Shown piece by piece: positions 31,984-63,970 of a stretch of DNA of 64,000 nt. The first letter of the stretch is position 1. The number at the start of each line of letters is the position of its first letter. The notes beneath the pieces were generated by a model that worked only from the letters and a program-made list of their open reading frames with translations, was not told the origin of the DNA and searched no databases. The stretch is from Schizochytrium sp. TIO01 (Eukaryota > Sar > Bigyra > Thraustochytrida > Thraustochytriidae): the NCBI GenBank assembly GCA_004764695.1, contig SMSO01000034.1:265501-329500 (forward strand). Direction: 5' to 3'. The translations under genes were made by a program, and so were the position numbers.

Positions 31984-34900
31984 CTACTGTTCTTCAGGTC
32001 GCACCAACTGCAATCTGTGTAGGTCACCTGTACCTTGTAAAAAACAAAAGAAATGGTCTTCGGCTCCTACGTAGCAGGCCACATTTGCCTCAAATGAGAA
32101 GCTTGCCTCGAATCCTCTTTGGACGTGTGGTCCAGAAACTGACCAACCGTTCGGAAATGTGCAGTCCTCCTGACTTAAACCTAAAGGAGGCGAACCTTCA
32201 TATCTTGAAAACTCTATCTTTCCCGAGATATTCCAGTGTTGATCCTTCAAACCAACATGCAACACGACACCTTTGTTGGTAAGCGCAAACAGTCCACTTT
32301 GATCATCTATGTACAACTCTTCAATAACATCTGGGTCATGGATGATAGTTTCCGCGTATTGTTTGTTTGATCGTTTCCAAATCCGAGTGGAATGATCCAG
32401 TGACGCAGATACTATAAAATCAGTGTTTGCTACAATACATTTTATAGCACCTTCCTGAGGTGGCCCAAGACTTCCCATAAAAGTGCCATCTTTACTATTC
32501 CACATACATACGTTACCTCTCTTATCACCGCTTAAAACAAGTTCTTCATGCAGACAGATGCAGCAAACATCACCAGAGTGCCTCTGCTGATTATGTGGAG
32601 ATAAACCCCGAGTGCAATTGTGCGAAACCGAAGTGAAAGCATACTTTGTAACCAAAATATGGCCATCCTCGTAACCAGCAGCTACATATCCTTGCTCATC
32701 AAGTGCCACACTCCATACTTCCTGCTCATACTCATCATATTCTTCAATTTGGCTACCTGAGTCTATTTCCCATAATCTCGCCTTCCCATCCGCTGCCCCA
32801 CTTAAGAGCCATACGTCCCCAGAGGGCATTGTCTGACACGCTAGAGAGTGTATCATCTTCCGTCTTCTGCCCATTGGCAAGTCTTTTGCGACAACATCAG
32901 GAATGCAACCCTCTGCATCATGCCATACAACCAGAGAGCCGTTTGATGTGCCTGCGAAAATCCACTTGCCTGAAACGCAGAATGATGTGCAGCTCAACAT
33001 GCGAGGGTGTTCGTCACAGCTAAATCCTAATGAGTAGGAAAAATCAAGTGTAGCACGGTTCCACACAAGAATCCGAAATTCTTGCGTTGCTACAACGATA
33101 CTGTTTTCGTTAATTCCGCAACCAAAAATTGTTCCCTGAACAGGAAACTTATGCTCACATGTTGAGGAGTCGAGTGATCGCACACACCACGTGGAGTCGT
33201 CGCGAGAAGAGGTCAATAGCACTGTGCTGTCCATTGCCATAGAGGAAACTCTAGATTGGTTATTATGCCACTCATGTTGCTTTGCTAAAGATTTAATGTC
33301 ATATACGTGCAGAAGTGACTCACCGTTACCATCAACTGCACATGCAAACCTTGACTCATGGATTGTGAGAGATGTCAATGGCGAATCGTAAGAATCGGCC
33401 AAAACTTTACGTTCCCTTCCTGTGGCCAGCGAATAAACAACCAATGACCCATTTTCCGAAGCTGCAATCAAAGTATTGTACTTGGAGGATATTACGAGTC
33501 CAGTTATCTTACCCTCGTGCGTACTATCTCTATTTGGAATTGAGTATAATAAAGGCTGCATGGCGTGGTAATCTTCCTCTAACATTTTAAGCTGAGAATA
33601 TTCGTTCTCCATTTTTGCACCTTCAATTAGTGGATGCTCGGATTTAAAATAATGCAATATTTGAGTACATAGCTCTCGGCAATCGTATGTAAGTGCTCTA
33701 GCCGTTCGTCGGAAAAAATTACCCATCTCAGATAAACTTTGGTGGGTATTCGCGTCTGGTTTATCGAAAGCGTCCTCTAACCATCCATAAATAGGCGCCT
33801 TGAGATGAACAATTGCAGTTTTAAGCCACTGGTAGTCGAGAAGATACGTTTCAACATCTTTCAATTGTTCAGCTCTCTTGAGATGAAATAGCACATGCGC
33901 AGCACAGAAGGAGTTTTGTTTTACATTGACCCCGTGAATGCAAGCTTTGGCCAACGTCTCATGGCCTCTTTGTTCACTGCAATTTATGTAATTAAGGAGA
34001 AGTTGCTTCACCCAATGGTCGTAAAATCGAAGAGCTTGATCAGACGAACCTGCGGCAACCCACGAGAATATGCTGTCCGGGAATTCTGCGAGAATCAACT
34101 CTTCGCTTGCCAGATGTAGAATGGAGATGACAGTATCAAATGGAATCGGCTCGCGCGCAACAAGAAGCGCACAGACGAGGTTCACCCGATTTTCACAGTT
34201 TTCACAGTGTGACTGGAACAGAAAATTGTCAAGAACACTCTGGTAGTATTCAGCTGGTTCTGATGATAAGCCTTGGTTGGCCGCGTGATGTACATTTGCT
34301 AGTCTTTCAGCACGAGCCATGTTTCCTTCACTCATTTGGGTAATTTCAGTTATACCTCTGCGAAGTCTTTCTGAATTAACTACACCCTGTTGGTCGAAGA
34401 TATAGCTAACAACATTTTCGATATCCTTTATGTTGCTCTCTGAGGTGGGCATGATTGGTTTAATCAAACATACCTGATCGTTAAGCATGCTATTGGGTTC
34501 ATCGCAAGAGGCAATGACGACTAGCCAAGGTGGCATCTCTTCTTTCCATCTGTGCGTCAATATATCAAGAAGATCCTCGAAGCCTTCAATGCCTGGATAT
34601 AGATTGTCAAAGACCACAATCAAACGTGGAGAAGTATTGGCTTGGGTAGACTGAAAAGGCTTTACAAGAAGTTTCTCAAAGATCTCTTGAAGAGATGTTT
34701 CCTCTATTCCAGCATTAACAAGGGCTTCATCCGCAGCCAGGGCATCTTTGAGATATTCAGGGAACAATTGATGCAACTGCTTCGCAATGCTGAGAAGTGC
34801 AAGCTTTGCACTTCTTAGTTGAATGTCTTCAGAATCGAAAAAATGGGCAGCCGCAACGCAAAATTTGTATCTACCTCCTGAGTCAGATCTCGATAAGCTC

Positions 34901-35700
34901 ATGCTTATTCGGAGGGATTGACGCTGGCTGACCCTTTCCGAGTTCCGAGTTCGATATTTTATAGCGGCGTCAAGATCAAAAAGGTGTCCAATTTGACTTA
35001 GAGCTGCGAGAAACGTGGATTTGCCGATACCATGCTCTCCGATAATGACACACAAGCCAGGTTCATTAGATTGTACCCAAGCCTGTACATCGCTTAGCAA
35101 CCAGACCCTTGTATTGGTTACGTACTTCTTCGCTTTAGCTTTGATTAAACCCAAAAAATTTAGCTGATTGATTCTACGAAGAGCGCTATCGTTGATTGGA
35201 TCAACGCCCCAACAAGATTTTACGTGACTTATTTGATCTGCGATTGAAGTTGCTGCCTCTTGCGCTTCAATGTCAGGGCTTGAAGATCCAATTGTATGTC
35301 GATACAAATGCAGCAAATGGTTAATCATGCTGAACTTCCTCCAATAAAGAGTATTTTGAAATTCTCTGTCTTGGGCTATTGGAATAACTTGCGATGGTCT
35401 GAAGAAAGATTTCATGAGATTGAATTCAAAACGGCAATATGTAAAATCATCCACATCGAGTTTTTCTGCATACTCGCGAGTCAGGAAAATAACCACAAAG
35501 GTACATTCCTGCATCCCATTTTTGATCATATTCTCCAAGGCACCCCCAATGAGGCTAGTTTGGTCCCTCCAAACGTTGATTCCATGATCATTTTCAAGAG
35601 CTGTTTCCACGGCCTCCACAAAAGGCTGATGTTCACGGGGCTTATATTCCGAGCCCCATGCATATGAGAAGAAGACCATGTCTGGTTCATCTGACAACAT
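31984..35700 (-). CDS. TIR-NACHT/STAND-WD40 protein 1 (module 1)
   Basis: A 1,238-residue protein. The frame is open to 35739 only through a TTG; the ATG is at 35700 (MLSDEPDM). Residues 1-130 are a TIR domain: VFFSYAWG at 9-16, NVWRDQTSL near 42-50, CTFVVIFLTREY at 66-77, and CRFEF with Glu92 where TIR NADases carry their catalytic Glu. The NTPase follows, with Walker A GEHGIGKST (221-229) and Walker B IVVFDN (361-366). A winged-helix and helical arm (about 500-700) then has the LLVAREPIPFD and YLLDYQWLKTAI signatures seen in NACHT-WD proteins. From about 730 at least seven WD40-type repeats form a probable propeller (for example LSGDKRGNVCMW). There is no signal peptide, so it is cytosolic. 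The architecture is that of an oligomerising sensor: WD40 senses, NTPase assembles, TIR signals. Its role here is inferred. It lies 1.06 kb from a vWA gene on the same strand. Confidence 0.93.
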   Translation of the reverse strand: MLSDEPDMVFFSYAWGSEYKPREHQPFVEAVETALENDHGINVWRDQTSLIGGALENMIKNGMQECTFVVIFLTREYAEKLDVDDFTYCRFEFNLMKSFFRPSQVIPIAQDREFQNTLYWRKFSMINHLLHLYRHTIGSSSPDIEAQEAATSIADQISHVKSCWGVDPINDSALRRINQLNFLGLIKAKAKKYVTNTRVWLLSDVQAWVQSNEPGLCVIIGEHGIGKSTFLAALSQIGHLFDLDAAIKYRTRNSERVSQRQSLRISMSLSRSDSGGRYKFCVAAAHFFDSEDIQLRSAKLALLSIAKQLHQLFPEYLKDALAADEALVNAGIEETSLQEIFEKLLVKPFQSTQANTSPRLIVVFDNLYPGIEGFEDLLDILTHRWKEEMPPWLVVIASCDEPNSMLNDQVCLIKPIMPTSESNIKDIENVVSYIFDQQGVVNSERLRRGITEITQMSEGNMARAERLANVHHAANQGLSSEPAEYYQSVLDNFLFQSHCENCENRVNLVCALLVAREPIPFDTVISILHLASEELILAEFPDSIFSWVAAGSSDQALRFYDHWVKQLLLNYINCSEQRGHETLAKACIHGVNVKQNSFCAAHVLFHLKRAEQLKDVETYLLDYQWLKTAIVHLKAPIYGWLEDAFDKPDANTHQSLSEMGNFFRRTARALTYDCRELCTQILHYFKSEHPLIEGAKMENEYSQLKMLEEDYHAMQPLLYSIPNRDSTHEGKITGLVISSKYNTLIAASENGSLVVYSLATGRERKVLADSYDSPLTSLTIHESRFACAVDGNGESLLHVYDIKSLAKQHEWHNNQSRVSSMAMDSTVLLTSSRDDSTWCVRSLDSSTCEHKFPVQGTIFGCGINENSIVVATQEFRILVWNRATLDFSYSLGFSCDEHPRMLSCTSFCVSGKWIFAGTSNGSLVVWHDAEGCIPDVVAKDLPMGRRRKMIHSLACQTMPSGDVWLLSGAADGKARLWEIDSGSQIEEYDEYEQEVWSVALDEQGYVAAGYEDGHILVTKYAFTSVSHNCTRGLSPHNQQRHSGDVCCICLHEELVLSGDKRGNVCMWNSKDGTFMGSLGPPQEGAIKCIVANTDFIVSASLDHSTRIWKRSNKQYAETIIHDPDVIEELYIDDQSGLFALTNKGVVLHVGLKDQHWNISGKIEFSRYEGSPPLGLSQEDCTFPNGWSVSGPHVQRGFEASFSFEANVACYVGAEDHFFCFLQGTGDLHRLQLVRPEEQ

Positions 35701-36756: not shown

Positions 36757-38925
36757 TTATTCCTCATCGTCAGACTCACTATCATCATCGGCGTCGTCAT
36801 CACTCCATTCCAATGGAGAATGCACAATAACATTCAAGCCATTCAATGAGTGCCTTTCTGCATTAATTGGCCGAAATGTTTGTGAGTCATGGCGCGACGG
36901 AGACGCTGATATCCCTTTGGAGCAGCTACAGTCACCGAGGCAGCCTCCTTCCTGCCCTCCACAGCTACATTGTGGATCGCACAGACACATCTCACGTTTT
37001 ATGTATTGCTCTTTAAGGCGCTTTCGCATCTCCTTCCGGAAGACAAGCTCATTCACAGCCTCATCCACATCTGATTTCTTACTTCTCACTATAGATCTGA
37101 CCCTGTCAAGCATCCAACGACTGACACCTCGCGCCTTTTCTGCATCCACTTTGTCTTCACCTTGGAGCGCTTCATTCAATGGTTGTTTTGATGTAAACGG
37201 CAAAAATCTTCTCTTAGGTTTCACGTTGCTCGAAACCGATGGCGGAAAAAAAGTAGAACTTGGAATTGCCTCGGCCAAGTCCTTAGTTAAAGTAAGGGTG
37301 TCAATCGCCTTATTTACCCTTTCTAGCAAGGCAGCAGCAGCAGCGTTGCTAAATTCCTCAATGCTTTCACGAAGGCGGCGCAAGACATATTTGATAAGTT
37401 CAATACTAACTTTCACCTCTGAGTAGCTTGCTACTTTACGATACTTTGTCGCGTGCTTCAGGGTATCTTCAAGAATTTCCACTGATGTTGCACGGGCTTC
37501 AACCATCGAACTAGAGGATTGGAGCGACCTCTGTGCCAGAAGCACACCATCCCGTACCTTTTCACGAGTTCGAATAGCACGTGTCTTTGGTGCACGATGC
37601 TTGCGCTTGGAACTAAGTGTGCGGTCTAAAACGAGATCAAGGCTAAGCTCATTAGAGCGCTCCATGTCTGCTCCCCGTCTTCTTCGAGGCCTCTCAGTGC
37701 ACAGCCTGGCTGTCAAGAAATGGTACGCAGGGGTCGGTGCTTCGCACGTTGAGTTGAGAAGAATCGGCACAGTAAACGTCCGAAGAGCGCCAAATTGTCC
37801 CTTTGGCAGAATCAGTTTGCAGGAGTCTTCATTTAAACTCTCCTTGATAAAGTCAGCCGGAAGTCTGTCCTCTAAACGCGCTTGGTCAATGGTAACCTCA
37901 TCCCTCCGTTCTTCTGGGACAATGATGTAAAGGGTGTTTAGCAAGTTGGGTCCTTTAACCTCGTCAGCATCTTCAATCTTTATATTCTCTTGGCCAGGCA
38001 CAGACATATAACCCCCCAAAACTTTTGTAAGTCTCTCAAAAAAAGCCTTTGCAAAAGTGTCACCATAAAGACCGATCGGGTATGCCCGAAGTTCAATCTG
38101 CATGAAAGTAAGGCTAGCCAAAGGGACAGGGTCACTATCCTCTTCTCCCTCTCCATCATCTTCTTCTCCGGGTGATCTGGCCGATGCATCTTCTGCTCGG
38201 GTATTTAAGTTTCGTAGATGCTTTGCCGCCAACTTCATTCTTTTGGCCGTTTGCAGGGTTTCTTCCGCGTCAAACACCTGACCATCACTCGTCACATGAA
38301 TCTCAAGCCTGGTTGAAGTGGCGATGTCGCTGTTTTTGGTCTTGTTGGTGAAGGCAACCTCTGCTTCACGAAGTTTGATGAACCCAGTGTTCATGTTGGT
38401 TCCACCGTAGATTCCTTGAGAGTTGACATTTGCGATCAATGCTTCTCTAGATGCTTTAGTAAGAAGTATAAATCCATTTGTGATATCCTCGGCCATAGAC
38501 CCAAAGCAGATTACCGCGCAGTAGATTGTTTGTTCATGCAAATCCAACGCCTCAATCCAAGTTTGAAACTGTTGCTTTGCTTGTACAGACTTTTCTCCGG
38601 CCATGCTGCCACTGAAGTCCATGATCCATGCTACAGCGTAGGAATCCCGAACGGAATATTTTGCGATTTCATAGGAGAAGCCAATCTCAAGTTCTTCTGG
38701 GCTCATTCCAGTTTGCTTGGGGTAGCTTATTTCAAACCTTGGGAATACATCATTCGAAGCATCTAGCGTGGTTTCTTTGTTACTCCTACGTGTGAATGAA
38801 TTCACTAGAGAAATCCGCCCAACCGTGCTGCGACTCATTGCGCTGGTACTACAAAGCAAATATCTACGATTGCTAAGGGTTGTTTTTTGGTTTTGCTGTA
38901 CCATCGCCTTCTCAATTTTTTTCAT
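36757..38925 (-). CDS. Class A vWA-domain protein 1, with Cys-rich and acidic tail (module 1)
   Basis: A 722-residue protein. The frame is open to 38994 only through TTG in a T-rich microsatellite, so I use the ATG at 38925 (MKKIEKAM); ATGs at 38904 and 38838 are alternatives. The von Willebrand factor A domain has all three MIDAS motifs: DFSGS at 103-107, GGTNM (Thr175) and SDG (Asp213). It also has the phrase YAVAWIMDFSGSM shared with the class A gene at 50212-52056. An acidic loop (GEEDDGEGEEDS) interrupts the domain's second half. A beta-rich region and a Lys/Arg-rich helical part follow. Near the end, seven Cys are spaced C-x-C-x3-C-x-C-x6-C-x3-C-x-C, a possible metal site, then an acidic tail. 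vWA domains bind protein partners through a metal ion. No signal peptide or membrane segment. Divergent to a class B vWA gene. Confidence 0.9.
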   Translation of the reverse strand: MKKIEKAMVQQNQKTTLSNRRYLLCSTSAMSRSTVGRISLVNSFTRRSNKETTLDASNDVFPRFEISYPKQTGMSPEELEIGFSYEIAKYSVRDSYAVAWIMDFSGSMAGEKSVQAKQQFQTWIEALDLHEQTIYCAVICFGSMAEDITNGFILLTKASREALIANVNSQGIYGGTNMNTGFIKLREAEVAFTNKTKNSDIATSTRLEIHVTSDGQVFDAEETLQTAKRMKLAAKHLRNLNTRAEDASARSPGEEDDGEGEEDSDPVPLASLTFMQIELRAYPIGLYGDTFAKAFFERLTKVLGGYMSVPGQENIKIEDADEVKGPNLLNTLYIIVPEERRDEVTIDQARLEDRLPADFIKESLNEDSCKLILPKGQFGALRTFTVPILLNSTCEAPTPAYHFLTARLCTERPRRRRGADMERSNELSLDLVLDRTLSSKRKHRAPKTRAIRTREKVRDGVLLAQRSLQSSSSMVEARATSVEILEDTLKHATKYRKVASYSEVKVSIELIKYVLRRLRESIEEFSNAAAAALLERVNKAIDTLTLTKDLAEAIPSSTFFPPSVSSNVKPKRRFLPFTSKQPLNEALQGEDKVDAEKARGVSRWMLDRVRSIVRSKKSDVDEAVNELVFRKEMRKRLKEQYIKREMCLCDPQCSCGGQEGGCLGDCSCSKGISASPSRHDSQTFRPINAERHSLNGLNVIVHSPLEWSDDDADDDSESDDEE

Positions 38926-40495: not shown

Positions 40496-42319
40496 ATGGA
40501 GCTAGATTTCAAGCTCGAGCATGATCAGCTAACGACGAGCCCTGAAGAGTCCTTTCTCTTGGGAACTATCACCACTGGTGAAGAGAAGGTTGATGGTGCC
40601 GTTTTGCTGGTGCTTCTCGACACTAGTCGCTCGATGGACCATCGCCAACCAGAGCTCGAGACAGTGGACGACTTCTATCGAAGCAGAATTGAAGTAATCA
40701 AGGTAGCTTTGTTTGAGCTTCTTGATGAAGCAAATGAGAATGACCTGGTCGGACTCATTACCTTCGATAATGATGCCGAGACAATCTTTGAAATTGAACA
40801 TGCTACAGCAGAAAATAAAAATTATTGGAGAGAAGCCATCAATGAAAACATTGAGTTTGCCGGGCAAACAAACCTTGAAAAAGGCATCAGATCTGCCGTG
40901 AATGAGCTTGAGTACGTGGAGTCTTTTCTTCAGAAAGACTCAGCGGTGATAGTTATTATTTGTGATGGCTATATCACATCAGGGGTTGGATATCCACGTT
41001 CCAGAAATCAAGTTAACGTTGCTCACCAGAATCTTATTAGCTTGATCAGGAGACAACTAGAACAACTCGAAAACATGAATGTTTCTATTCACTCCTGTGG
41101 CATTGGAAATGAATTCGATAGACGATTCCTTCAGAGGATATCATCAGACTGTGGATCTGGGGGGCGCTTTCAAGGATTTGTTTTACCTGAAGAGCAGTTG
41201 AAGACCTCTAGTGGGTTTTTATCTACATTGCTTCAAAACGAGAGGCGGACGCTCAAGGGCAAAACCGGGGTATACTACACCCTTACTGCGGAACCCGGTA
41301 CCACATTGGCAATCCGTACAGCAACTGAAGCGTATGATCCGAGCTGCTTGGAAATTGAAGAACTTGAAACTGGCAAGTATAAGATTACACCCAAGAAGCA
41401 GTTTGTACATAGGAAGGTACTATTTACAATGGTTGTTTTGCTGGAGGAAGTAGTAACACCAAATCAAAATCATAAAGTTGCTCGATTTTACTCGAGTACA
41501 GATAGCCATACAAAATATGTTTTTGTTGATCGATGCGACACAAGAACCCAGAATACGAAGCGCAATATAAGGCGAAGAGCTGTTGAAAAGCAGAATAGTT
41601 TAGCTACTGAACTGGAAAATCTGAGCAAGCAAACAGACCAGGAACAGGTTGAAAACATCGATGAGTCGCATAGAAAGTTGATTGATTTTAAACAGAGTCT
41701 TCAAAGTGTTTTCAACCTTGCGTGTACTTTTGGTCAAGATCCACCTTCCACTAACCAGCTTCTACAGATTTCTTTGATTCTGGAAAAGGTTTTGAAAGCT
41801 GTTACAGATGCTATGAGTGAAATTCAAACAGGCATTACATCATTAAGGCAATCGGTTTTGGGGTTCCGCCTTGGATCATTATTTGCAACGTTTGCAGATA
41901 TCCTTCGAACACAGATGCCGTCCACCTTCGTTTTTGCGTACACCGAGGACAGTGAAGAGGACGTGGAAGTTAGTCTGAGGAAGCAAATATCGGATGCTGA
42001 AAAGGAGATCCAAAGATTGGAGGAGCTGGGTCGCGTTCATGGTTTCGATGAAAACCAGTTCAGTATCGCCGAATGCCATGCACGTTTAAAAAGAATCGAG
42101 GAGCGCAAAATGGAGCTTCAAAAAGAGCTAAGAGAAATTGGGCTTCTAAGAGAACCATCATCGCAAATATCCCGGAGAAGTTCTTCAGGAAGTCAACCCA
42201 GACGAAGCATCTCAAGGTTCTTTCCACGTATCTTGCGACGTCAAGAAGAGCCTTCTACAAGATCAAGTGCAGACGGCTCTTCTCGAACAAGCTCAGATTC
42301 ATTTGATGCTCAAGAATAA
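40496..42319 (+). CDS. Class B vWA-domain protein 1 (module 1)
   Basis: A 607-residue protein starting at an ATG (MELDFKLEHD). Its vWA domain begins almost at once, with all MIDAS motifs intact: DTSRS at 42-46, GQTNLEKGI with the conserved Thr, and ICDGYI with the third Asp. A beta-rich part follows (about 250-350), then helical and coiled-coil-like stretches (about 360-560). The C-terminus is Ser/Arg-rich and basic (RRSISRFFPRILRR). The same plan recurs in the three class B copies at 56-64 kb: N-terminal vWA, helical middle, basic Ser-rich tail with an amphipathic helix. The basic tail might bind membrane or an acidic partner. It is transcribed away from class A vWA 1 and toward TIR-STAND 2, whose stop lies only 95 bp beyond this stop. 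Probably a cytosolic adaptor or scaffold; the function is inferred. Confidence 0.9.
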   Translation: MELDFKLEHDQLTTSPEESFLLGTITTGEEKVDGAVLLVLLDTSRSMDHRQPELETVDDFYRSRIEVIKVALFELLDEANENDLVGLITFDNDAETIFEIEHATAENKNYWREAINENIEFAGQTNLEKGIRSAVNELEYVESFLQKDSAVIVIICDGYITSGVGYPRSRNQVNVAHQNLISLIRRQLEQLENMNVSIHSCGIGNEFDRRFLQRISSDCGSGGRFQGFVLPEEQLKTSSGFLSTLLQNERRTLKGKTGVYYTLTAEPGTTLAIRTATEAYDPSCLEIEELETGKYKITPKKQFVHRKVLFTMVVLLEEVVTPNQNHKVARFYSSTDSHTKYVFVDRCDTRTQNTKRNIRRRAVEKQNSLATELENLSKQTDQEQVENIDESHRKLIDFKQSLQSVFNLACTFGQDPPSTNQLLQISLILEKVLKAVTDAMSEIQTGITSLRQSVLGFRLGSLFATFADILRTQMPSTFVFAYTEDSEEDVEVSLRKQISDAEKEIQRLEELGRVHGFDENQFSIAECHARLKRIEERKMELQKELREIGLLREPSSQISRRSSSGSQPRRSISRFFPRILRRQEEPSTRSSADGSSRTSSDSFDAQE

Positions 42320-42414
42320 CCAAATACTAAAACTCAGTCACTGTACTTCTCTTCATCGAAGAAAGTTTGAAAACCATACTAAGCAAAACCTTGAAAAGCT
42401 AAACAAATACGAAG

Positions 42415-52056: not shown

Positions 52057-55000
52057 TGTGCTCTATGCTGGTGTCAGTGATCTCAAAGCTTTGATTTGGG
52101 TTTGGTTTGATTCGAGTTTGGTTTGATAATTTGCCTGAAAATTAGTGACTCCTTGTTCCGACTACTTTGACCAGTGGGTTTTACAGGTCTTGCCACTAAC
52201 TGGAGCACCGCGTTGAAATGCCTCGCCAGTTCTTTAGAATTGTTAGGGGATCTCTTTCAGCTATACCTACCGTAAAGAGCATGTAAACAAACCACATTTC
52301 CAGAGTTGTAGATCTTCATGCCATGCAAAAGCAGATAAAGTTCTTGATTCATGCAGCACTGGGTAAAAATCATGTAAATATTATAGAAACTGGCTATCAC
52401 TCTCCAGGGGGCAAATATATTCTTTTTAAGAATAAAGTTAGAGATCAAGCAACCAGCTAGCTGTACCATTGCCAAGATTTGGTCTTCCGTTTGCTTGAAA
52501 ATTTAGTGATTAAATTTCAATAGCCGAAATACAATTGATGATTTCAATGTTTAAAATTAGTTTTGAAATAAAGGCTTACATACAATGTCTTTGAAAAAAA
52601 TAAATTAAGAAAAATACAGGTTTTAAAGAAATAAAAAAGCCTGAGATTCTTCAACTTAAAAAATAAAAAATAAAATTTAAAAAAAGTAGAAAACTTTTTA
52701 TGTGGAACAACTAACAAAAACTTTAACAATTGCGAGGATTGCGAAGAATCTACCTACTTTCCAGAGTCTTGTAGTCATATTTTTAAAATCAAGAGCGCTA
52801 AGAGCTCATTACGCTATTCGATAGTTCTAAAAATGAATATTTCAAGAGGCCCGAGAAAAGTCAAGATTTTCAAGACCAAACGCGTTTCGGGCTTTAGTTG
52901 ATTTCGGGCGGAAACCCTTCCATCTAGTCAATAAACAGTCGACACAAGCAGGCATGCAGCGATGTTGGCTGAGAAGTACTGGTTTCTTTTGGTCAGAAGT
53001 ATATGTAAGTTTTTGGTTTGGATCGTGTGCACCCCCCTGAGCTCGCCTAAAATCATACAAAATTTAGGCAAACGTGTGTAATGGTGTGATAATTGGAAGC
53101 ATTAGTATAGCCAAGTTCAATGTTCATTTTTCAAAATATTATTATTATTATTATTTATTGATGAATTAATAGTGTGTTTCTGGTTGGTTTTAAAAGTAAT
53201 TTCCAAACTTTACATATGAATGATCAGAAAATCGCAATCACATCCGAACCAGGCTATTGACCATATTGGAGATGCCTGCGCTTTGCACGTGTACCTCTAT
53301 TTCGACAGAAAGCTCCGAGCCCCGGAGCGGCCTTGCTTCCGGTTTGCACACCCAGCCCGCCAACCAAAAATGTAACTCGCGCAAATCTGAAAACAAGTAC
53401 AGCTTCTGAAAGCTTGGATCATGTCAGCAAGGACTGACTCAGCCAGATTTTAGCAATTCGAACCGACTTCGTTGGAATCAGCTCGTGTGCTGCAGAGCGA
53501 TATCTATGTTGATATCTGTAGTACATACTGCCCGAGGTATAGTGTAATTTAAAGGTCACTAGCATCTTATTTAGGACTCGAAAGGGAGCTACAAGACTCG
53601 CTACTGAGAAAGACGCAAAGCTACGACTTATAGCATCTTGACTTAAATATTGTGGTGGGTGACCTTTACGATTCTCTATAAATGCATAAGCTTTCACGTC
53701 GATCCTCAAAACTTATCCTTTCGTAGTCATGGGTACTACTCATCTAGCTCCACTGTACTGATGTTTTCAGTGACAAGTTAAAGTTCATTGAACAGTTGGA
53801 GTATGTAAATAGGGTTTACTAGGCGGCGGTGCGTCCGGGCCCCTGAGAGAAGCTATCACGAACCAGTGTGCTTGCGAACACCTATGCTATTTCCATAGGA
53901 CGAGGATTCACGAGGACATCAGTCTAACCTTAAGCAGCTCAGCTCGACTTGATAAAACAGAACTGTGCAGCGCGTGCCGATTCCGATTTGATGCCGCTGA
54001 CCCTTTTTGTAAGATCAGATTTCAGAGAAGAGTTTTACCTACAGACCTACTCGATTTTTTTGTTTCTTAACTGGTGGTATGTTTAAACAGGAAAATAGTA
54101 AACCTGGAGATCTCAATACAGGTTATGCGTCACCGCGAAGTACCTAATTCTATCTAAAATCAAATGTCGAGAGTAGTAATGGTGTTTCCTTGGAGCCTTG
54201 GCGAATCACATATAGGAATCTCTGTGTCTTTTCCGCTTTGAATAATCTCCTATTCTGCAGTTCTGTTGCACGCGCTGTCAGAGAAATTTCCAACTATGAT
54301 GATGAGAGAACGAACTTTAAAAAAAGAAAAAGAAAAAAAGAAAAAGAAAAAGAAAAGATATCTTTAATTTAATTTAATTTAATTTAATTTAATTTGTTCA
54401 AGTGTACTCGACCTGATCGTAAGTCTCTCGGGCCTCTTTTTTTTTTTTTTTTTTTTTTAAATTAAATTTAATAAATAAATATTCATTATTCTATTACCTT
54501 TGTTATGATTATGATTATTATTATTGTATTCAATAGATTGCCTAGCTATATATATTCATTTAAAAAGTTGTTATTTTAGTCACCAACCTTTTCACAGTAA
54601 TCAAGAATACTAAGTACTGCAAATTTTAGAATAGTAAGTGCTCTACCTACTACCGATGAATCTGGAGTCTGTGAACACCAATTGCGAGGCCTTTAGACGC
54701 AGTCCCCTATCAAAGGAAGGCCGACTGTAGGGGGTTGGGCAAGCTCGCTCATGGCTGCATTAATTACTTTTTTTAATTTGTTTTCATTTGGAGGAAAGGA
54801 GCCACCCTTGTTGCACATTCGAAGAATTAATCAACTGAACTACTCGTATACACGCGGAGCTAATCCTACAGCACTCTGGTCTAGCTAGAGCGCGAGACCA
54901 ATTTTATTTAACTGGAGGAACTCCATACCATCTTGAAGTGAGTATGCGTCGGAGAGTCGGTAATGTCGGCAAGCATCATCCTCAGCTCGCGCAACATCGA

Positions 55001-56338
55001 CGCTTAGACGGTACACACCCCTGTTTCCTTCAACAGTGCGTCCGTGAGGACCAACCATTAACATTTTACAAATTATTTATTTAAAAAACTTTCCAACAAA
55101 GCATCTTATTTTAGGAAGGACTTTGGTTAGTGTATACAGGGCCTCGCATCATCCGCAGAGTCACAAGATCCTCCTTGTCCAAGTAGGAAAGTGACACAGT
55201 AAAGAAAAATATTTGTGATTTATAGATATTCTACTAGGTGAAAAAGTAACGTGGAAACAAATTATTTCGGCAGTCAAACATAAAACTTAGCTTAATTTAA
55301 TACAAAAACGTTTTTAAATATAAATATAACTTCAAGTTAGAAGAACATAAAAACGTTTTCAAGGGGAAAATAGGAATGTCTAATCCAAGGTCTGCGGCCG
55401 GCGCAACTATGCAGAAGAATGATCACCATTCTGCTCCCTTAGACGTGCTCCTATCAATGACCTTGATTCAATAGGGAATCCACAAGTTAATACCTATCGC
55501 TATTGTAACTGACGTTGCTAGCTTGAATTTGGCAATGTGATACCTGATTAAGTTTGCGAGGAGACTCTGATCTTTAATGTATCATAAAAGGAAAAAAGAA
55601 AAGACACTTGGGATAAATACTATACTATTGAGCGATTGTTTTAACTTGAGATTTTTACCTAAGTTACTTCAACTCAGAACCGCTGACTAGTGAGGATACA
55701 TATTGTATACAATAAAAGTGCAAAAATGAAGAGTAATACAAGTAATAATTAAAGTTGCTGAAGAACACTCGATGGTATCTTCTTCGTGATTAAACCAAAT
55801 GTTTTACGGTGAGTCTTGCCATCAAGCTGAGGACCAGTCGTTGAATCATGACCCATCGTCGAACCTGAAAGCCGCAAGCGCCATCCAATTCTAAAATCGT
55901 GCGAGATCTAGGCAAGCAGGTGATGGCAGAGACCGTTTCTACCTTACCTACCTCATGAGGCTAGCAACTATTTGTAGCAACAATAAAAGAACCTTCGAAT
56001 AACTGGTATATGGAATCAAGAAGATAATTAGTATACTCTACTCTTATGTATATGGATGATAGATATAATTGATAATTAAATAAAACTAGAATATTTAGTT
56101 GAGAGAGAGAGAGACTTCTTAGGTGCAGCAAATCAGCAACTCGGCCAAGTGAAGGCATCATCTTAACTTGCTATCCCGAGGAGCTGCGAGGGATAGACTT
56201 CGGCAGACTCCGGCGTCCAAGAAAGCAAACTCTGAGAAACTTCTACGAGGCGCCAGCTTGGATTCACCATTAACCAGCCGCTGCCAACTCAGGACAGTCC
56301 AGTCTGTGCTTTCTGAATAGTTCTTCGGCTTGACTAAA
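52057..56338. promoter_or_regulatory. Divergent spacer of module 2, no gene seen
   Basis: About 4.3 kb between class A vWA 2 and the first class B copy, transcribed in opposite directions, so both promoters lie here. AT-rich, with GAAAAA repeats at about 54320-54356, AATTT repeats at about 54362-54396 and a poly-T at 54438-54459. No supported protein or RNA gene. Confidence 0.45.
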
Positions 56339-58357
56339 ATGGATTTAACCTCGCACTCGGGCAAAGCCAAAACGTCGAGTGAAGACAGTCAAACTTACCT
56401 CAAATATCAACTGTCAGATGACTCCTTCGTCACAGTTAGCATGGCCTACGAGTCAATTAAGGTTAAACGCGAAGAAGTTTCTCTCCGAGTCGTTACTGAT
56501 CCGGCACCTCCTGTTAAACACGAGATCACTAGTCAGGAATCAGGCTCTGTTCTTCTACTTGTCGTAGACACAAGTCGGTCAATGATTGATATTCAAGAGG
56601 ACCTGGCAGAGGAGTCAGGAGGCGGCTTCGCCACTCGAGGCGAGGTGGTCTTGGATGCCATTGACTCACTCATTGACGAGTGCCGCGACGAAGACGTGCT
56701 CGGTCTCGTCACCTTCGCTTACCAAAGCAAGGTCGTCTTTCCACTTGAGAACGCAAATGAAGACAATAAAAACGAATGGAAACGAAAGCTACGCGAAAAC
56801 ATCGAGTTCGCTGGAATGACAAACCTTGAAAATGGGATAATCAGTGCCGTGAGCCAACTTGAAGACCTTGATAAGGAAAGATACGCATCAGCATCAATCA
56901 TGATTATTTGTGATGGCTTTATCAACGCCGGTAAAGGCTTTGTCAATTCTATGGATGACGACAAGATCAAGGACGCCCAAAAAGAGCTCGCCGACTTCAC
57001 GAAAGAGTCATTTCAAGGAATTCAAGGAATTCAAGGTCTCAAAGTACGAGTTAGTGTCTGTGGTATTGGCGACGACTTCGACCGTGGAATGCTCCGCGAG
57101 ATGTGCAATACAGGGGCAGCAAGAGGACTGCCCTATTCTCTTGCACAGTCGAGCAAGCTCCTCGAGAAGATGAAGACAGCACTTTCGAAAACCTTGGAAC
57201 TTGAACGAATTCAACCTGCTGGACGAAGAAAGAAGAAGACCGTAGTCGCAAACGAGATGAAGATTCGAATTGAGCTACACCAAGGCGCTAGCCTGGACAT
57301 AGGAAAACATAGAAAACTATTAAGAAAAGGCAACAAGAAATCTGAGGGTATGAAAAAGATCTCATTGGACCCTTTTGACGATGGCTATCAGAGCATTACG
57401 TTCTCTCCTTTACCAGAGAAGGCAATGATCGACATACCTGTTCTGCTTGGCCCTGCTGATGGTCTTGGAGAGCGTGATGATACAGGTCAGCCTATTATGC
57501 CCCGACTTCCAAATACCAGAAACATGTACAGAATCGCTACAATCTATGCGTTATGGCCCAAGAAAGAAGAGAAAGGGCACATCGATGTAGTCCGAAAGGG
57601 GGGTGAATCAATACTAGACGAACAGATTCAAAGATTAAACAAGATTCAAGACACGATGGGCGGTCTGATCAGCACTCTGCGTAAGGTTTCAGGCATGGAT
57701 GAAATGGAGGCCGTACAAGAAGAAACCATTGTCGAAACTGAGAGCGAACTGGATTCTACGCAAGTAGATACAGTCCAAAAGTTAGAGGAGATTTTAGCAC
57801 TACATAAGTCGTTTACCAAAAAGCTGGACAATGGTAACTTTACGCAAAAGGAAGTTGACGAAGTTCTTCAGAGCAAGGAGATGCTGTCGAATTTGATAGA
57901 TATGTTTGTATCTGTGAGGAAAGCGATAAGCTATGTTTTTAATCTGAAGGAAGATCTGAAGAAAACGGACGCAGATGAGTATGTCTTAGGGTGTGATTTT
58001 GCAGGTTTCTGTGACCTTCTTTGTTCCTCTTTGGAAACAGGGCTGGGCAATACAGGTCTAGATACAGATGGTACGGGCGGCGGCGACCAGGCAGATACGA
58101 ATGATACAGATAGCAAGGGCGGCAGCGACCAGAAAGATATGAATGAGCTGTTAATGAAGGCAAAGGAAGCTCTTGGTGCTGTTATGGCAGGGCTTGAGAA
58201 TGCAATTGAAGACGGTATTGTTGAAAAGCTGCGAAGACAAATAGAAGACCAGGAAGACGAGCAAAAGAGGGGACATCCTCCACCCAAGCGATTATCTTCT
58301 AGAATTCGAGATTCCTTGAAAAGACTTTCCAGGTCTTCCAAAAGGGGGGACAGCTAA
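56339..58357 (+). CDS. Class B vWA-domain protein 2a, MIDAS intact (module 2)
   Basis: A 672-residue protein from the ATG at 56339 (MDLTSHSGKA); an apparent extension to 56330 starts with TTG. The vWA domain runs from about 70 to 270 with a full MIDAS set: DTSRS at 77-81, GMTN with Thr161, and ICDGF with Asp192. A conserved beta-rich part (about 300-400, with SITFSPLPEKAMIDIPVLLGP) follows, then helices (about 430-560) and an Asp/Gly-rich linker longer than in the sister copies. The C-terminus is basic and amphipathic (RLSSRIRDSLKRLSRSSKR). First of three tandem copies and the only one with a complete metal site, so it is the likely ancestral function. It diverges from class A vWA 2. Confidence 0.92.
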   Translation: MDLTSHSGKAKTSSEDSQTYLKYQLSDDSFVTVSMAYESIKVKREEVSLRVVTDPAPPVKHEITSQESGSVLLLVVDTSRSMIDIQEDLAEESGGGFATRGEVVLDAIDSLIDECRDEDVLGLVTFAYQSKVVFPLENANEDNKNEWKRKLRENIEFAGMTNLENGIISAVSQLEDLDKERYASASIMIICDGFINAGKGFVNSMDDDKIKDAQKELADFTKESFQGIQGIQGLKVRVSVCGIGDDFDRGMLREMCNTGAARGLPYSLAQSSKLLEKMKTALSKTLELERIQPAGRRKKKTVVANEMKIRIELHQGASLDIGKHRKLLRKGNKKSEGMKKISLDPFDDGYQSITFSPLPEKAMIDIPVLLGPADGLGERDDTGQPIMPRLPNTRNMYRIATIYALWPKKEEKGHIDVVRKGGESILDEQIQRLNKIQDTMGGLISTLRKVSGMDEMEAVQEETIVETESELDSTQVDTVQKLEEILALHKSFTKKLDNGNFTQKEVDEVLQSKEMLSNLIDMFVSVRKAISYVFNLKEDLKKTDADEYVLGCDFAGFCDLLCSSLETGLGNTGLDTDGTGGGDQADTNDTDSKGGSDQKDMNELLMKAKEALGAVMAGLENAIEDGIVEKLRRQIEDQEDEQKRGHPPPKRLSSRIRDSLKRLSRSSKRGDS

Positions 58358-59140: not shown

Positions 59141-61141
59141 ATGGATCTAACCTCGCGCTCGAGCAAAGCCAAAACGTCGAGTGAAGACAGTCACACTTAC
59201 CTCAAATATCAACTGTCAGATGACTCCTTCGTCACAGTTAGCATGGCCTACAAGTCAATTGATGTTGAATCCGAACAAGTTTCTCTCCGAGTCGTTACTG
59301 ATCCGGCACCTCCTGTTGTTGCACACAGGATCACTAGTCAGGAGGACGAAATAGGCGCTGTTCTTCTACTTGTCGTAGCCACAAGTCGGTCAATGGTTGA
59401 TATTCAAGAGGACCTAGCAGAGGAGTCAGGAGGCGGCTTCGCCACCCGAGGCGAGGTGGTCTTGGATGCCATTGACTCACTCATTGACGAGTGCCGCGAC
59501 GAAGACGTGCTCGGTCTCGTTACTTTTGCGAGTCGAAGCGAGGTCGTCTTTCCACTTGAGAACGCAAATAAAGACAATAAAAACGAATGGAAACGAAAGC
59601 TTCGGCGTGATATTGCGTTTGACGGGAGAGAAAATCTTGAAAAAGGGATTATCGATGCCTTGAGCCAACTTGAAGACCTTGATAAGGAAAGATACGCATC
59701 AGCATCAATCATGATTATTTGTGATGGCTTTATCAACGCCGGTAAAGGCTTTATCAATTCTATGAGGAAAGAGAAGATCAAGGCCGCCCAAAAAGAGCTC
59801 GTCGACTTCACAAAAGAGTCATTGCAAGAAATTGAAGGTCTCAAAGTACGAGTTAGTGTCTGTGGTATTGGCGACGGCTTTGACCGTGGAATGCTCCGCG
59901 AGATGTCCAAAACAGGGGCAGCAAGAGGACTGCCCTATTCTCTCGCACAGTCGAGCACGCTACTCGAGAGTATGAAGACGGCACTTTTGAATTTCTTGGA
60001 ACTTGAACGAATTCAACCTGCTGGACGAAAAAAGAAGAACAACTTAGTCGCAAACGAGATGAAGATTCGAATTGAGCTAAACCAAGGCGCTAGCCTGGAG
60101 ATGGGAAGACTTAGAAGACTATTAAGGAAAGGCAACAAAAAGAATTCTCCTGAGGGTATGAAAAAGATCTCATTGGATCCTTTTGACGATGGCTATCAGA
60201 GCATTACGTTCTCTCCTTTACCAGAGAAGGCAATGATCGACATACCTGTTCTGCTTGGCCCTGCTGATGGTTTTGGAGAGCTTGGTGAAGGGCAGGATGT
60301 TTTTATGCCCCGCCTTCCAAATACCAAGAACATGTACAGAATCGCTACAATCTATGCGTTATGGCTCAAGGATGATGAGGTAATTGAGAAAGAAGTGAAA
60401 GGGCACATCGATGTAGTCAGAAAGGGGAATCAATCGATACTAGACGAACAGATTCAAAGATTAAACGAGATTCAAGACACGATGGGCGGTCTGATCGCTA
60501 CTCTACGTGAGGTTTCAGGCATGGACGAAATGGAGGCCGATCGAGAAGAAACCATTGCCGAAACTGAGAGCGAACTGAATTCTATGCAAGTAGATACAGT
60601 CCAAAATTTAGAGGAGATCTTAGAACTACATAAGTCGCTTACCAAAAAGCTGGACAATGGCAACTTTACGCAAAGGGAAGTTGACGAAGTTCTTCAGAGC
60701 AAGGAGATGCTGTCGAATTTGATAGATATGTTTGTAGCTGGGAGGAAAGCGATAGACTATGTTTTAAAACTGAAGAAAGATCTGGAGAAAGCGGACGCAG
60801 ATGAGTATGTCTTAGGGTGTGATTTTGCAAGTTTCGTTGACCTTCTTTGTTCCTCTTTGGAAACAGGGATGGGTAATACAGGTCTAGATACAGATGGTAC
60901 GGGCGGCAGTGACCAGACAGATACGAATGAGCTGTTAATGGAGGCGAAGAAAGCCCTTGAGACTGTTACGGAAGGGCTTGGGAGTGCAATTGAAGACGGT
61001 ATTGTTGAAAAGCTGCGAAGACAAATAGAAGACCAGGAAGACGAGCAAAAGAGGGGACATCCTCCACCCAAGCGATTATCTTCTAGAATTCGAGATTCCT
61101 TGAAAAGACTTTCCAGGTCTTCCAAAAGGGGGGACAGCTAA
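59141..61141 (+). CDS. Class B vWA-domain protein 2b, MIDAS degenerate (module 2)
   Basis: A 666-residue protein from the ATG at 59141; the frame is open to 59066 only through TTG. It aligns with copy 2a along its whole length. The first MIDAS motif reads ATSRS (Ala80, codon GCC) instead of DTSRS. The second reads GREN (Glu164) where copy 2a has GMTN. The third Asp (ICDGF) remains. Two of three metal-binding motifs are therefore lost while the rest of the fold is conserved, so metal-dependent ligand binding is unlikely in its usual form. The basic C-terminal tail is identical in kind to that of copy 2a. There is no frameshift or stop, so this is probably a functional variant and not a pseudogene. 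Confidence 0.92.
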   Translation: MDLTSRSSKAKTSSEDSHTYLKYQLSDDSFVTVSMAYKSIDVESEQVSLRVVTDPAPPVVAHRITSQEDEIGAVLLLVVATSRSMVDIQEDLAEESGGGFATRGEVVLDAIDSLIDECRDEDVLGLVTFASRSEVVFPLENANKDNKNEWKRKLRRDIAFDGRENLEKGIIDALSQLEDLDKERYASASIMIICDGFINAGKGFINSMRKEKIKAAQKELVDFTKESLQEIEGLKVRVSVCGIGDGFDRGMLREMSKTGAARGLPYSLAQSSTLLESMKTALLNFLELERIQPAGRKKKNNLVANEMKIRIELNQGASLEMGRLRRLLRKGNKKNSPEGMKKISLDPFDDGYQSITFSPLPEKAMIDIPVLLGPADGFGELGEGQDVFMPRLPNTKNMYRIATIYALWLKDDEVIEKEVKGHIDVVRKGNQSILDEQIQRLNEIQDTMGGLIATLREVSGMDEMEADREETIAETESELNSMQVDTVQNLEEILELHKSLTKKLDNGNFTQREVDEVLQSKEMLSNLIDMFVAGRKAIDYVLKLKKDLEKADADEYVLGCDFASFVDLLCSSLETGMGNTGLDTDGTGGSDQTDTNELLMEAKKALETVTEGLGSAIEDGIVEKLRRQIEDQEDEQKRGHPPPKRLSSRIRDSLKRLSRSSKRGDS

Positions 61142-61948
61142 CTTTGAGGCAGATATAATAAGGCATGTGTCGTCCAACGATTTATCTGTACTTTCTTCAT
61201 TCACTTCAGATCTGCGGAGTCGTCCATTTAAATATTTTTCAAGTAGATAAGATAAAATATGTTACTATCTCGAATCATTGATTTTTCTGTGCTATAAAAA
61301 TTTGAGCGAGTGTAATGATGATTGAAAATTGTGAAATTTAAAAGACAAATAAAATGTATTCAAAAAAATAAATTTTATTTAAAGTATTACTCATATTCAA
61401 AAGCGAAGCTAAAAGAGAGATCGAATTTAAAAGTGATCGCAAAATCATAATTGGCTTTTGTTGTATGGTTTAATGGCACGTCCCGCATCCTAATTTTATT
61501 TTATTTTTTGTTTCAAAATGATTCATGTAGAAATTAAATGAAAAGTAAGAGTCCTTATAAGGAATCTATGAAGAACGACCAAGAGTTGAACCCATGAGTC
61601 TTTTCTTCTTCTCCATACTCTTTTTTTTTCTTCGAAGTTGAAAGGAAAAATAAAGAAAAGAGAAAAAGTAAAAACGTTTTCACTCCAAATTCAAAACATT
61701 TTCTACGCAGCGACAACAACAGCAACAGCAACAGCAAAACAAGCAAGTGCTCCCGCGGCAGACCAGCAATCCTGCGAATCTCAAAGTGGTACACAGATCA
61801 CATCTTCGCTCCATCCGTAGCTTGTGAAGCTGCGAGGCCCGAGGTCTGGCGTTCCCAAGCATAAACTCTGCGCTTGAATACCCGCTGCAGCATACCTGAT
61901 AGGCGGGACTCACGAAGAGTCCTTCGACTTGGACGATACAAAGACAAA
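61142..61948. promoter_or_regulatory. Spacer and promoter region of copy 2c
   Basis: Close copy of 58358-59140 with small indels, including an extra short stretch (GAGATCGAATTTAAAAG) near 61415. It should hold the promoter of copy 2c and the 3' end of copy 2b. Confidence 0.6.
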
Positions 61949-63970
61949 ATGGATCTAACCTCGCGCTCGGGCAAAGCCAAAACGTCGAGTGAAGACAGTC
62001 AAACTTACCTCAAATATCAATTGTCAGATGACTCCTTCGTCACAGTTAGCATGCCCTACGAGTCAATTGATGTTGAATCCGAACAAGTTTCTCTTCGAGT
62101 CGTTACTGATCCGGCACCTCCTGTTGTTGCACACGAGATCACTAGTCAGGAGGACGAAATAGGCTCTGTTCTTCTACTTGTCGTAGCCACAAGTCGGTCA
62201 ATGATTGATTTTCAAGAGGGCCTGGCAGAGGAGTCAGAAGACAGCTTCGCCACCCGAGGCGAGGTGGTCTTGGATGCCATTGACTCACTCATTGACGAGT
62301 GCCGCGACGAAGACGTGCTCGGTCTCGTCACGTTTGCGAGTCGAAGCAAGGTCGTCTTTCCACTTCAGAACGCAAATGAAGACAAAAAGAAAGAATGGAA
62401 ACGAAAGCTTCGGCGTGATATTGCGTTTGGCGGGAGGGAAAATCTTGAAAATGGGATAATCAGTGCCGTGAGCCAACTTGAAGACCTTGATAAGGAAAGA
62501 TACGCATCAGCATCAATCATGATTATTTGTGATGGCTTTATCAACGCCGGTAAAGGCTTTATCAATTCTTTGAATGACGACAAGATCAAGGCTGCCCAAA
62601 AAGAGCTCGTCGACTTCACAAAAGAGTCATTGCAAGGAATTCAAGGTCTCAAAGTACGAGTTAGTGTCTGTGGTATTGCCGACGACTTTGACCGTGGAAT
62701 GCTCCGCGAGATGTGCAAGACAGGGGCGGCAGGAGGACTGCCCTATTCTCTTGCACAGCCGAGCAAGCTCCTCGAGAAGATGAAGACAGCACTTTCGAAA
62801 ACCTTGGAACTTGAACGAATTCAACCTGCTGGACGAAGAAAGAAGAAGACCGTAGTCGCAAACGAGATGAAGATTCGAATTGAGCTACACCAAGGCGCTA
62901 GCCTGAGCATATTAGAACTTAGAAGACTATTAAGAAAAGGCAACAAGAAATCTGAGGGTATGAAAAAGATCTCATTGGATCCTGTTGACGATGGCGATCA
63001 GAGCATTACGTTCTCTCCTTTACCAGAGAAGGCAATGGTCGACATACCTGTTCTGCTTGGCCCTGCTGATGGTCTTGGAGAGCGTGATGATACAGGTCAG
63101 AATATTATGCCCCTCCTTCCAAATACCAAGAACATGTACAGAATCGCTACAATCTATGCATTATGGCTCAAGGATAATGAGGTAATTGAGAAAGAAGTGA
63201 AAGGGTACATCGATGTAGTCAGAAAGGGGAATCAATCGATACTAGACGAACAGATTCAAAGATTAAACGAGATTCAAGACACGATGGGCGGTCTGATCGC
63301 TACTCTACGTGAGGTTTCAGGCATGGACGAAATGGAGGCCGATCGAGAAGAAACCATTGCCGAAACTGAGAGCGAACTGAATTCTACGCAAGTAGATACA
63401 GTCCAAAATTTAGAGGAGATCTTAGAACTACATAAGTCGCTTACCAAAAAGCTGGACAATGGCAACTTTACGCAAAGGGAAGTTGACGAAGTTCTTCAGA
63501 GCAAGGAGATGCTGTCGAATTTGATAGATATGTTTGTAGCTGGGTGGAAAGCGATAGACTATGTTTTAAAACTGAAGAAAGATCTGGAGAAAGCGGACGC
63601 AGATGAGTATGTCTTAGGGTGTGATTTTGCAGGTTTTTTTGACCTTCTTTGTTCCTCTTTGGAAACAGGGCTGGGTGATACAGGTCTAGATACAGATGGT
63701 ACGGGCGGCAGCGACCAGAAAGATATGAATGAGCTGTTAAAGGAGGCGAAGAAAGCTCTTGATGCTGTTATGGCAGGGCTTGAGAATGCAATTGAAGACG
63801 GCATTGTTCAAAGTCTGGTAGCCGACTTAGAGCGGAAAGGTGCAGGCATTGAAGACCAGGAAGACGAGCAAAAGAGAGGATATCCTGCACCCAAGCGATT
63901 ATCTTCTAGAATTCGAGATTCCTTGAAGAGACTTTCCAGGTCTTCCAAAAGGGGGGACAGCCAACGTTGA
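61949..63970 (+). CDS. Class B vWA-domain protein 2c, MIDAS degenerate and mosaic (module 2)
   Basis: A 673-residue protein from the ATG at 61949. Like copy 2b it has ATSRS (Ala80) and GREN (Glu164) in place of DTSRS and GMTN, with ICDGF kept. Sequence affinity switches along its length. It matches copy 2b around both degenerate motifs and again from about residue 400 (KGNQSILDEQIQRLNEIQD). It matches copy 2a in between (ENGIISAVSQL, RRKKKTVVANEMKIRIELH, GERDDTGQ). Near the C-terminus it has its own insert (QSLVADLERKGAG). It ends RGDSQR with TGA, differing from the TAA of the others. The mosaic pattern suggests gene conversion or unequal crossing-over within the array. Confidence 0.92.
   Translation: MDLTSRSGKAKTSSEDSQTYLKYQLSDDSFVTVSMPYESIDVESEQVSLRVVTDPAPPVVAHEITSQEDEIGSVLLLVVATSRSMIDFQEGLAEESEDSFATRGEVVLDAIDSLIDECRDEDVLGLVTFASRSKVVFPLQNANEDKKKEWKRKLRRDIAFGGRENLENGIISAVSQLEDLDKERYASASIMIICDGFINAGKGFINSLNDDKIKAAQKELVDFTKESLQGIQGLKVRVSVCGIADDFDRGMLREMCKTGAAGGLPYSLAQPSKLLEKMKTALSKTLELERIQPAGRRKKKTVVANEMKIRIELHQGASLSILELRRLLRKGNKKSEGMKKISLDPVDDGDQSITFSPLPEKAMVDIPVLLGPADGLGERDDTGQNIMPLLPNTKNMYRIATIYALWLKDNEVIEKEVKGYIDVVRKGNQSILDEQIQRLNEIQDTMGGLIATLREVSGMDEMEADREETIAETESELNSTQVDTVQNLEEILELHKSLTKKLDNGNFTQREVDEVLQSKEMLSNLIDMFVAGWKAIDYVLKLKKDLEKADADEYVLGCDFAGFFDLLCSSLETGLGDTGLDTDGTGGSDQKDMNELLKEAKKALDAVMAGLENAIEDGIVQSLVADLERKGAGIEDQEDEQKRGYPAPKRLSSRIRDSLKRLSRSSKRGDSQR

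Follow-up and report, generated by a model that had tools for sequence, protein, structure and literature searches.

Several described systems bring together the parts considered here. In Podospora anserina the HNWD receptors (het-e, het-d and het-r) form a paralogous family of HET-NACHT-WD40 proteins for which a separate recognised protein is proposed (PMC12881547, PMC4986451), and other fungal clusters of NOD-like receptor (NLR) and cell-death genes, namely nwd2/het-S, HELLP/PNT1 and protease/gasdermin, encode receptor and partner side by side (PMC12881547). The bacterial MoxR-vWA ternary conflict systems (VMAP, iSTAND and iSTAND2) encode a von Willebrand factor A (vWA) protein with a STAND-type component, and TIR effectors occur in them (PMC7159879, PMC8195603, PMC10907252). 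The plant copine BON1 is possibly guarded by the TIR-NLR SNC1, and the vWA of wheat WTK6-vWA (Lr9) is a proposed integrated decoy (PMC10260399, PMC6041448). TEP1 of the RNA vault combines a TIR-like NADase with NACHT and WD40, and a vWA region is drawn in the same protein set (PMC13174449). Here we describe a locus of the thraustochytrid Schizochytrium sp. TIO01 in which TIR-NACHT-WD40 STAND receptor genes stand beside two orphan families of vWA genes, A and B, in a three-gene module that is repeated in order and orientation and has been duplicated as a block. The analysed stretch, or window, comprises 64,000 nucleotides (C33:265501-329500) of a 64.06-Mb genome in 37 contigs. In the literature that we could consult (partial and mostly non-subscription), we located no study of NLR-like receptors in thraustochytrids or labyrinthulomycetes and no eukaryotic TIR-STAND gene clustered with vWA genes.

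A repeated module of receptor and vWA genes

A sequence-only reading of the window had proposed a module of TIR-STAND, vWA-A and vWA-B genes that occurs twice in the same order and orientation, with B in three copies in the second. All eight open frames were recovered at the places and on the strands proposed, in the order TIR1, A1, B1, TIR2, A2, B2, B3, B4, and all are intact; B2, B3 and B4 are each present as an open frame. The features are as follows, with those of a third module, which lies outside the window, given in continued window numbering.

31984-35700, minus strand: TIR1, TIR-NACHT-WD40 STAND gene of module 1, 1238 residues (Pfam)
36757-38925, minus strand: A1, orphan vWA family A, module 1, 722 residues (metal-site motifs and a Pfam VWA match below cut-off)
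40496-42319, plus strand: B1, orphan vWA family B, module 1, 607 residues (Pfam VWA_2)
42415-46251, minus strand: TIR2, TIR-NACHT-WD40 STAND gene of module 2, 1278 residues (Pfam)
46252-48019, no strand: upstream flank of TIR2, apparently non-coding, with a copy upstream of TIR3 (88.8% identity; DNA alignment)
50212-52056, minus strand: A2, orphan vWA family A, module 2, 614 residues (homology to A1 and motifs)
52774-53403, no strand: stretch between A2 and B2, with a copy between TIR3 and the B6 fragment (73% identity; DNA self-comparison)
56339-58357, plus strand: B2, vWA family B, 672 residues, metal site intact (Pfam and alignment)
59141-61141, plus strand: B3, vWA family B, 666 residues, metal site altered, D to A and T to E (Pfam and alignment)
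61949-63970, plus strand: B4, vWA family B, 673 residues, metal site altered, D to A and T to E (Pfam and alignment)
64527-65567, plus strand: B5 relic (tblastn)
66083-69826, minus strand: TIR3, intact, about 90% identical to TIR2 (tblastn)
72200-73357, plus strand: B6 fragment, a truncated B gene (tblastn)

B1 and TIR2 lie tail to tail, with 95 bases between their ends. The further proposal that no other gene type interrupts these 32 kb also stands: the three other listed frames of at least 150 residues within 31984-64000 overlap A1, A2 and B3, and the gaps at 46252-50211 and 52057-56338 contain no such frame and no match to a cluster protein, although intron-split genes would escape this search.

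The TIR-NACHT-WD40 domain set was likewise recovered in TIR1 and TIR2. TIR1 matches TIR_2 at 43.1 bits (cut-off 28) and NPHP3_N, a relative of NACHT, at 37.6 bits (cut-off 24.8), followed by WD40 propeller matches from about residue 739 in the numbering from its upstream start codon; in TIR2 both models again pass their cut-offs and WD40 matches follow. The WD40 model PF00400 scores 56.1 and 51.0 bits in TIR1 and TIR2, beside other propeller models, while the NACHT model itself falls below its cut-off; the P-loop is intact in the receptor alignment (GDKGMGKS and GEHGIGKS). The position of TIR3 carries a TIR_2 match in the whole-genome Pfam scan. The WD40 part of TIR2 includes a 66-bp duplication at 43674-43805 (66 bp x 2). 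Furthermore, the TIR part of TIR2 resembles the bacterial TIR NADase structure AbTIR (8g83, E 5.8e-5) over residues 9-79 only, a match that ends before the C-x-x-E motif kept in TIR1-3, which we take to lie where the catalytic glutamate of TIR domains is expected; in TIR2 the conserved glutamate is E92. PADLOC gave partial TIR/SEFIR-type matches to TIR1 and TIR2 (best 5.1e-11 and 2.4e-9), as well as NTPase and repeat-type matches, and a TIR-STAND profile found 14 proteins in the protein database, with TIR_2 listed in at least one (P0009).

The assignment of the neighbouring genes as vWA proteins stands for B1-B4, all of which pass the Pfam VWA_2 and VWA cut-offs (B1 VWA_2, 53.2 bits), and is weaker for family A, where A1 falls short of the VWA cut-off (21.5 against 23.8 bits) and A2 gives no Pfam match above cut-off and no vWA match at all. 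We retain family A as vWA because A2 is about 30% identical to A1 over 547 columns and both preserve the complete metal-site pattern (DFSGS, GGTNM and SDG in A1; DFSGS, GGTQM and SDG in A2); A1 also has a cysteine-rich segment near its C-terminus. The metal-site motifs of B1 are intact (DTSRS, T and D); in B3 and B4 alanine replaces the first metal-site aspartate and glutamate replaces the threonine, residues that B1 and B2 retain. Neither a C2 nor a Vwaint domain was found by Pfam in the whole proteins A1, A2 and B1-B4, nor at E up to 1 in family A and in the C-terminal parts of B1 and B2. Searches of PDB sequences with the A and B profiles gave no match, and neither did PADLOC for A1, B1, A2 and B2. 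In a hydropathy scan of TIR1-3, A1-2 and B1-4 no peak resembled a signal peptide or a membrane segment (N-terminal values were highest in B1, 1.53 from residue 30, on the first vWA strand), so that all nine proteins are probably cytosolic.

Duplication, divergence and genomic setting

Between modules 1 and 2, protein identity is 30.6% for TIR, 31.6% for A and 27.0% for B1/B2 (bootstrap ranges 27.9-33.1, 27.7-35.6 and 23.5-30.6), and the corresponding rates of nonsynonymous substitution (dN) are 0.84, 0.83 and 0.89, with synonymous sites saturated. On these sequence grounds modules 1 and 2 are old, and the similar divergence of their three families would fit, without proving, a single founding block duplication.

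In a DNA self-comparison of the second and third modules, 42415-48019 aligns with 66083-71555 at 91-94%, 52774-53403 with 71576-72194 at 73%, and the B genes with 72200-73358 at 81-84%; relative to module 2, module 3 lacks the A gene with the rest of 48.0-52.8 kb, and the start of B with the rest of 53.4-56.8 kb. The copy of the A2-B2 spacer sits between TIR3 and the B6 fragment, which points to a deletion of A from module 3. Module 3 is module 2 minus A, the product of block duplication followed by decay, in a process of birth and death. Since identity differs from piece to piece, being highest in the TIR part and lower in the A-B spacer and in B, copying or conversion of the TIR part of module 3 probably took place after that of the remainder. 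The block duplication offered by the sequence-only reading is thus borne out, module 3 being colinear with module 2 on DNA and modules 1 and 2 similarly diverged in all three families.

Among the younger copies, which evolve fast, the ratio of nonsynonymous to synonymous substitution (dN/dS) is 0.91 for TIR2/TIR3, 0.84 for B2/B3, 0.70 for B2/B4 and 1.12 for B3/B4, the B pairs not being mutually independent. There are no internal stops, where a simple neutral simulation expects 5.5 for TIR2/3, 4.6 for B3/B4 and 5.3 for B2/B4 (P of no stop 0.003, 0.008 and 0.004). All coding indels are multiples of three (4/4, 6/6, 3/3 and 7/7), whereas in the upstream flank of TIR2/3 this holds for 3 of 16 and in the B spacers for 1 of 6. 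Divergence is 0.121 in the TIR2/3 flank against 0.037 in TIR coding sequence, and 0.025 in the B spacer against 0.069-0.091 in B coding sequence.

Within the genome, families A and B were found at this cluster alone. Genome searches with B1, A1 and A2, which score the best candidates only and may therefore miss some, revealed no relative outside it, the sole genome relative of A1 being A2. In the protein database family A had no match and family B only one, a protein identical to B1 (source tag 'lgn', taken as a public-read assembly); these searches require shared 5-residue words and score at most 8000 candidates, so that distant relatives can escape.

The receptor class is more widespread. 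Whole-genome Pfam matches, all lower bounds, number at least 33 places for TIR_2, 16 for NPHP3_N, 31 for VWA_2 and 37 for VWA. Of these TIR places, 30 are more than 20 kb from any Pfam vWA match, the nearest of them at 82 kb; the three that are closer are TIR1-3. TIR and NACHT occur together in seven genes, namely those of the cluster and one each on contigs C30, C34, C32 and C13. These dispersed four led us to reject a restriction of TIR-STAND genes to the cluster. In the 5 kb taken at each, WD40 lies in the same frame as TIR-NACHT on C30, C34 and C32 and in a second, overlapping frame on C13. Three of the dispersed paralogues are 29-32% identical pairwise, and the fourth was compared by BLAST in its WD40 part only. 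In a tree built from the TIR-NACHT parts of the seven genes, those of the cluster group apart from the dispersed ones with support of 100/100; the midpoint root serves for drawing only, and the long TIR1 branch makes the joins unsure.

Several observations concern these other loci in their own right. At C13:7316501-7321500 (L048) the TIR-NACHT gene is followed at 3016-5000 by at least 15.7 tandem 126-bp WD40 units with 85% matches (Tandem Repeats Finder); the array consists of similar 42-residue WD40 units and runs to the end of the examined stretch, and the two overlapping frames reflect an intron or a frameshift. Six further TIR loci, taken as 3.3-kb stretches, comprise COR-TIR (L039, L042), ankyrin-TIR (L043, and L041 by eye) and two others (L038, L040). 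Three TIR places lie at C33:149834-163297, some 134 kb from the cluster. A tandem array at C31:3327499-3365749 contains six VWA matches in otherwise different frames; four of these genes look secreted, with hydrophobic N-terminal stretches by eye, and have no close similarity to family A or B. The array was considered as a second TIR-vWA cluster and rejected, 30 kb containing four of its six VWA places being without a TIR-STAND match.

The cluster lies on a contig of 4.85 Mb with TTAGG-type repeats, a telomere-like 5-mer, in both end stretches. To its left are a 91-bp minisatellite of 5.6 copies (window 24643-25141), an AAAC microsatellite of 58 copies (15590-15822) and, on the minus strand at 7033-12567, an 1844-residue frame with Peptidase_C48 (Ulp1) and DUF6729, which by its domains is probably a DNA transposon protein. 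Adjoining the cluster at C33:339501-359500 (L013, L014) are five head-to-tail paralogous frames of 377-453 residues, which start with a cysteine-rich CSYGG...C.C segment and show hydrophobic stretches by eye; the three that were scanned have no Pfam match. On the minus strand of L014, at 2951-5482, an 843-residue protein has Actin matches in three stretches and a tail rich in serine and arginine. Elsewhere, the 41.7-kb contig C37 looks mitochondrial from its frames (by eye) and tRNAs. Its frames of 509, 382, 263, 259, 223 and 202 residues contain no TTA and 10-31 TTG each, and its other long frames contain 1 to 16 TTA, some perhaps being read-through before a start or non-genes. Such avoidance of TTA agrees with NCBI table 23, the Thraustochytrium mitochondrial code, in which TTA is a stop, and suggests a thraustochytrid-like host.

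A proposed receptor-vWA coupling and its alternatives

We give an even chance to the view that this is a recognition locus that evolves fast and has been duplicated in blocks, with the TIR-STAND protein as both receptor and executioner and the vWA proteins as its dedicated partners. The founding module would have joined one TIR-NACHT-WD40 receptor to one gene from each of the two cytosolic vWA families. The WD40 propeller would keep the receptor inactive and read the ligand, a pathogen or non-self kin perhaps being the trigger; the NACHT ATPase might then oligomerise the receptor, and the clustered TIR domains, if they are NADases, would cleave NAD+ and make the cell dormant or kill it. The vWA proteins may bind the WD40 part or the ligand through their vWA face, as co-sensors, guarded proteins or decoys, and the B copies with an altered metal site could be decoys or regulators. 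Stated in full, this would be a eukaryotic three-part system, diversified through gene conversion and local duplication of the block, in which a TIR-STAND executioner is coupled to two orphan vWA families whose metal-binding copies serve as sensors and whose metal-dead copies are decoys or brakes; in that specific form we consider it doubtful.

Functional coupling of vWA proteins and receptor is, from sequence comparison, plausible but unproven. It is favoured because A and B are found only at the cluster, because B has been amplified with open frames, and because the block is still together at about 30% identity whereas receptor paralogues that are similarly diverged (29-32%) are on different contigs. 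A number of results weigh against it. Merging of neighbours leaves 27 TIR loci and 24 vWA loci, and the probability that at least one of the former falls by chance within 5, 10 or 20 kb of one of the latter is P = 0.10, 0.18 and 0.34, so that the founding neighbourhood alone is not evidence. For the dispersed four TIR-NACHT genes, the nearest 5 Mb of their own contigs contain no Pfam vWA match, and hence a vWA partner is not generally needed by this receptor class. Just two modules retain all three genes intact, and TIR3 is intact in module 3 despite the loss there of A and of most of B. The profiles of A and B show no match to one another, and no upstream word of 7-8 bases is common to more than three of six genes. 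The neutral reference rates of the TIR flank and the B spacer conflict, which makes gene conversion at the locus likely, and hence we make no claim of positive selection; dN/dS values near 1 can equally reflect relaxed constraint. Of the interpretation that the sequence-only reading placed on the module, therefore, block duplication holds and functional coupling stays a hypothesis, given the receptors that lack a vWA neighbour and the chance estimate. An R-x-S-x-R basic motif, noticed post hoc and not used, exceeds shuffled sequences in TIR1, A2 and B2-B4, is absent from A1 and B1 and is not significant in TIR2 and TIR3.

The same results lend themselves to a simpler account, which we think possible though short of probable: an arbitrary neighbourhood of a TIR-STAND gene and two vWA genes was duplicated as a block and kept together by chance or low recombination, the vWA genes having nothing to do with the receptor. 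The ease of chance proximity, the TIR-NACHT genes without vWA neighbours and the survival of TIR3 beside a deleted A and a truncated B are all as such passenger linkage would have it; set against it are the restriction of both vWA families to the cluster, their persistence with the receptor at a divergence at which its paralogues are dispersed, and the expansion of B2-B4 with frames kept open.

Recognition might also serve strain identity and not immunity, with the locus killing or blocking mixed fusions in the manner of fungal het loci and the vWA proteins as polymorphic ligands, but this we consider unlikely. Its architecture is like that of Podospora HET-NACHT-WD40, whose ligand is described as a separate polymorphic protein, HET-C (PMC12881547); B copies diverge quickly, and the C13 paralogue has its tandem array of similar WD40 units. 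No WD40-length tandem array, however, is present in TIR1 or TIR2 by repeat search, nor in TIR3 by alignment.

It is very improbable that the cluster is a foreign island carried as cargo from a virus or bacterium: A and B have no detected outside relatives except the protein identical to B1, the cluster genes are single open frames and their G+C content at third codon positions (0.36-0.46) is below the 0.72 of a nearby PurF-like gene, but this content resembles that of other nearby frames (0.41 and 0.43) and of the neighbouring membrane-protein and actin genes (0.39-0.42), four receptor relatives lie on other contigs, and no relative was found of A or B among viral contigs or of A among prokaryote genome contigs (a scan that covered A, not B).

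Comparison with described systems

The recognition locus that we favour shares its receptor plan with the fungal HNWD proteins, which like TIR1-3 have an N-terminal TIR or TIR-like domain, NACHT, a C-terminal WD40 part and a paralogous gene family. It differs in carrying TIR_2 and not HET, in the two vWA families that adjoin the receptor, and in the absence from TIR1-3 of a highly conserved WD40 array. The C13 paralogue does possess a tandem WD40 array, of 126-bp units, like the fungal HNWD genes. In the fungal NLR clusters the partner is a pore-forming or gasdermin executioner, whereas here it is a vWA protein, the TIR being part of the receptor itself.

With the bacterial MoxR-vWA ternary systems the cluster has in common a vWA component (B1-B4 by Pfam, A1 just below cut-off, A2 by homology and motifs), but it is eukaryotic and its STAND protein is coupled to WD40 and has an intact P-loop. 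It is not a MoxR-vWA system because the cluster has no match to MoxR (AAA_3), for which the genome has matches on C35 (three in one 5772-residue frame) and C31 (one). By analogy with BON1/SNC1 and WTK6-vWA, a vWA protein may be guardee or decoy; the cluster is not a copine system, since neither A nor B showed a C2 domain, and to our knowledge plant vWA proteins and TIR-NLRs are not linked genes. A vault reading was considered because the domain set is similar to that of TEP1, from which the cluster differs in having vWA in separate genes and in that TIR1 and TIR2, searched with Pfam at E 0.001 or better, match neither TROVE nor DUF4062; the major vault protein model MVP_shoulder had no matches in the genome, but none of 14 controls matched either.

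The new element of the cluster is the presence of two orphan vWA families beside an NLR-like receptor. With seven TIR-NACHT genes and at least 33 TIR matches, this genome is suited to asking how protists recognise viruses, bacteria and kin. If the coupling is real, A and B would be concrete candidates for the working partners of the receptor, and a single-celled stramenopile would possess a receptor-plus-partner system that recalls both the het loci of fungi and the vWA/STAND conflict systems of bacteria.

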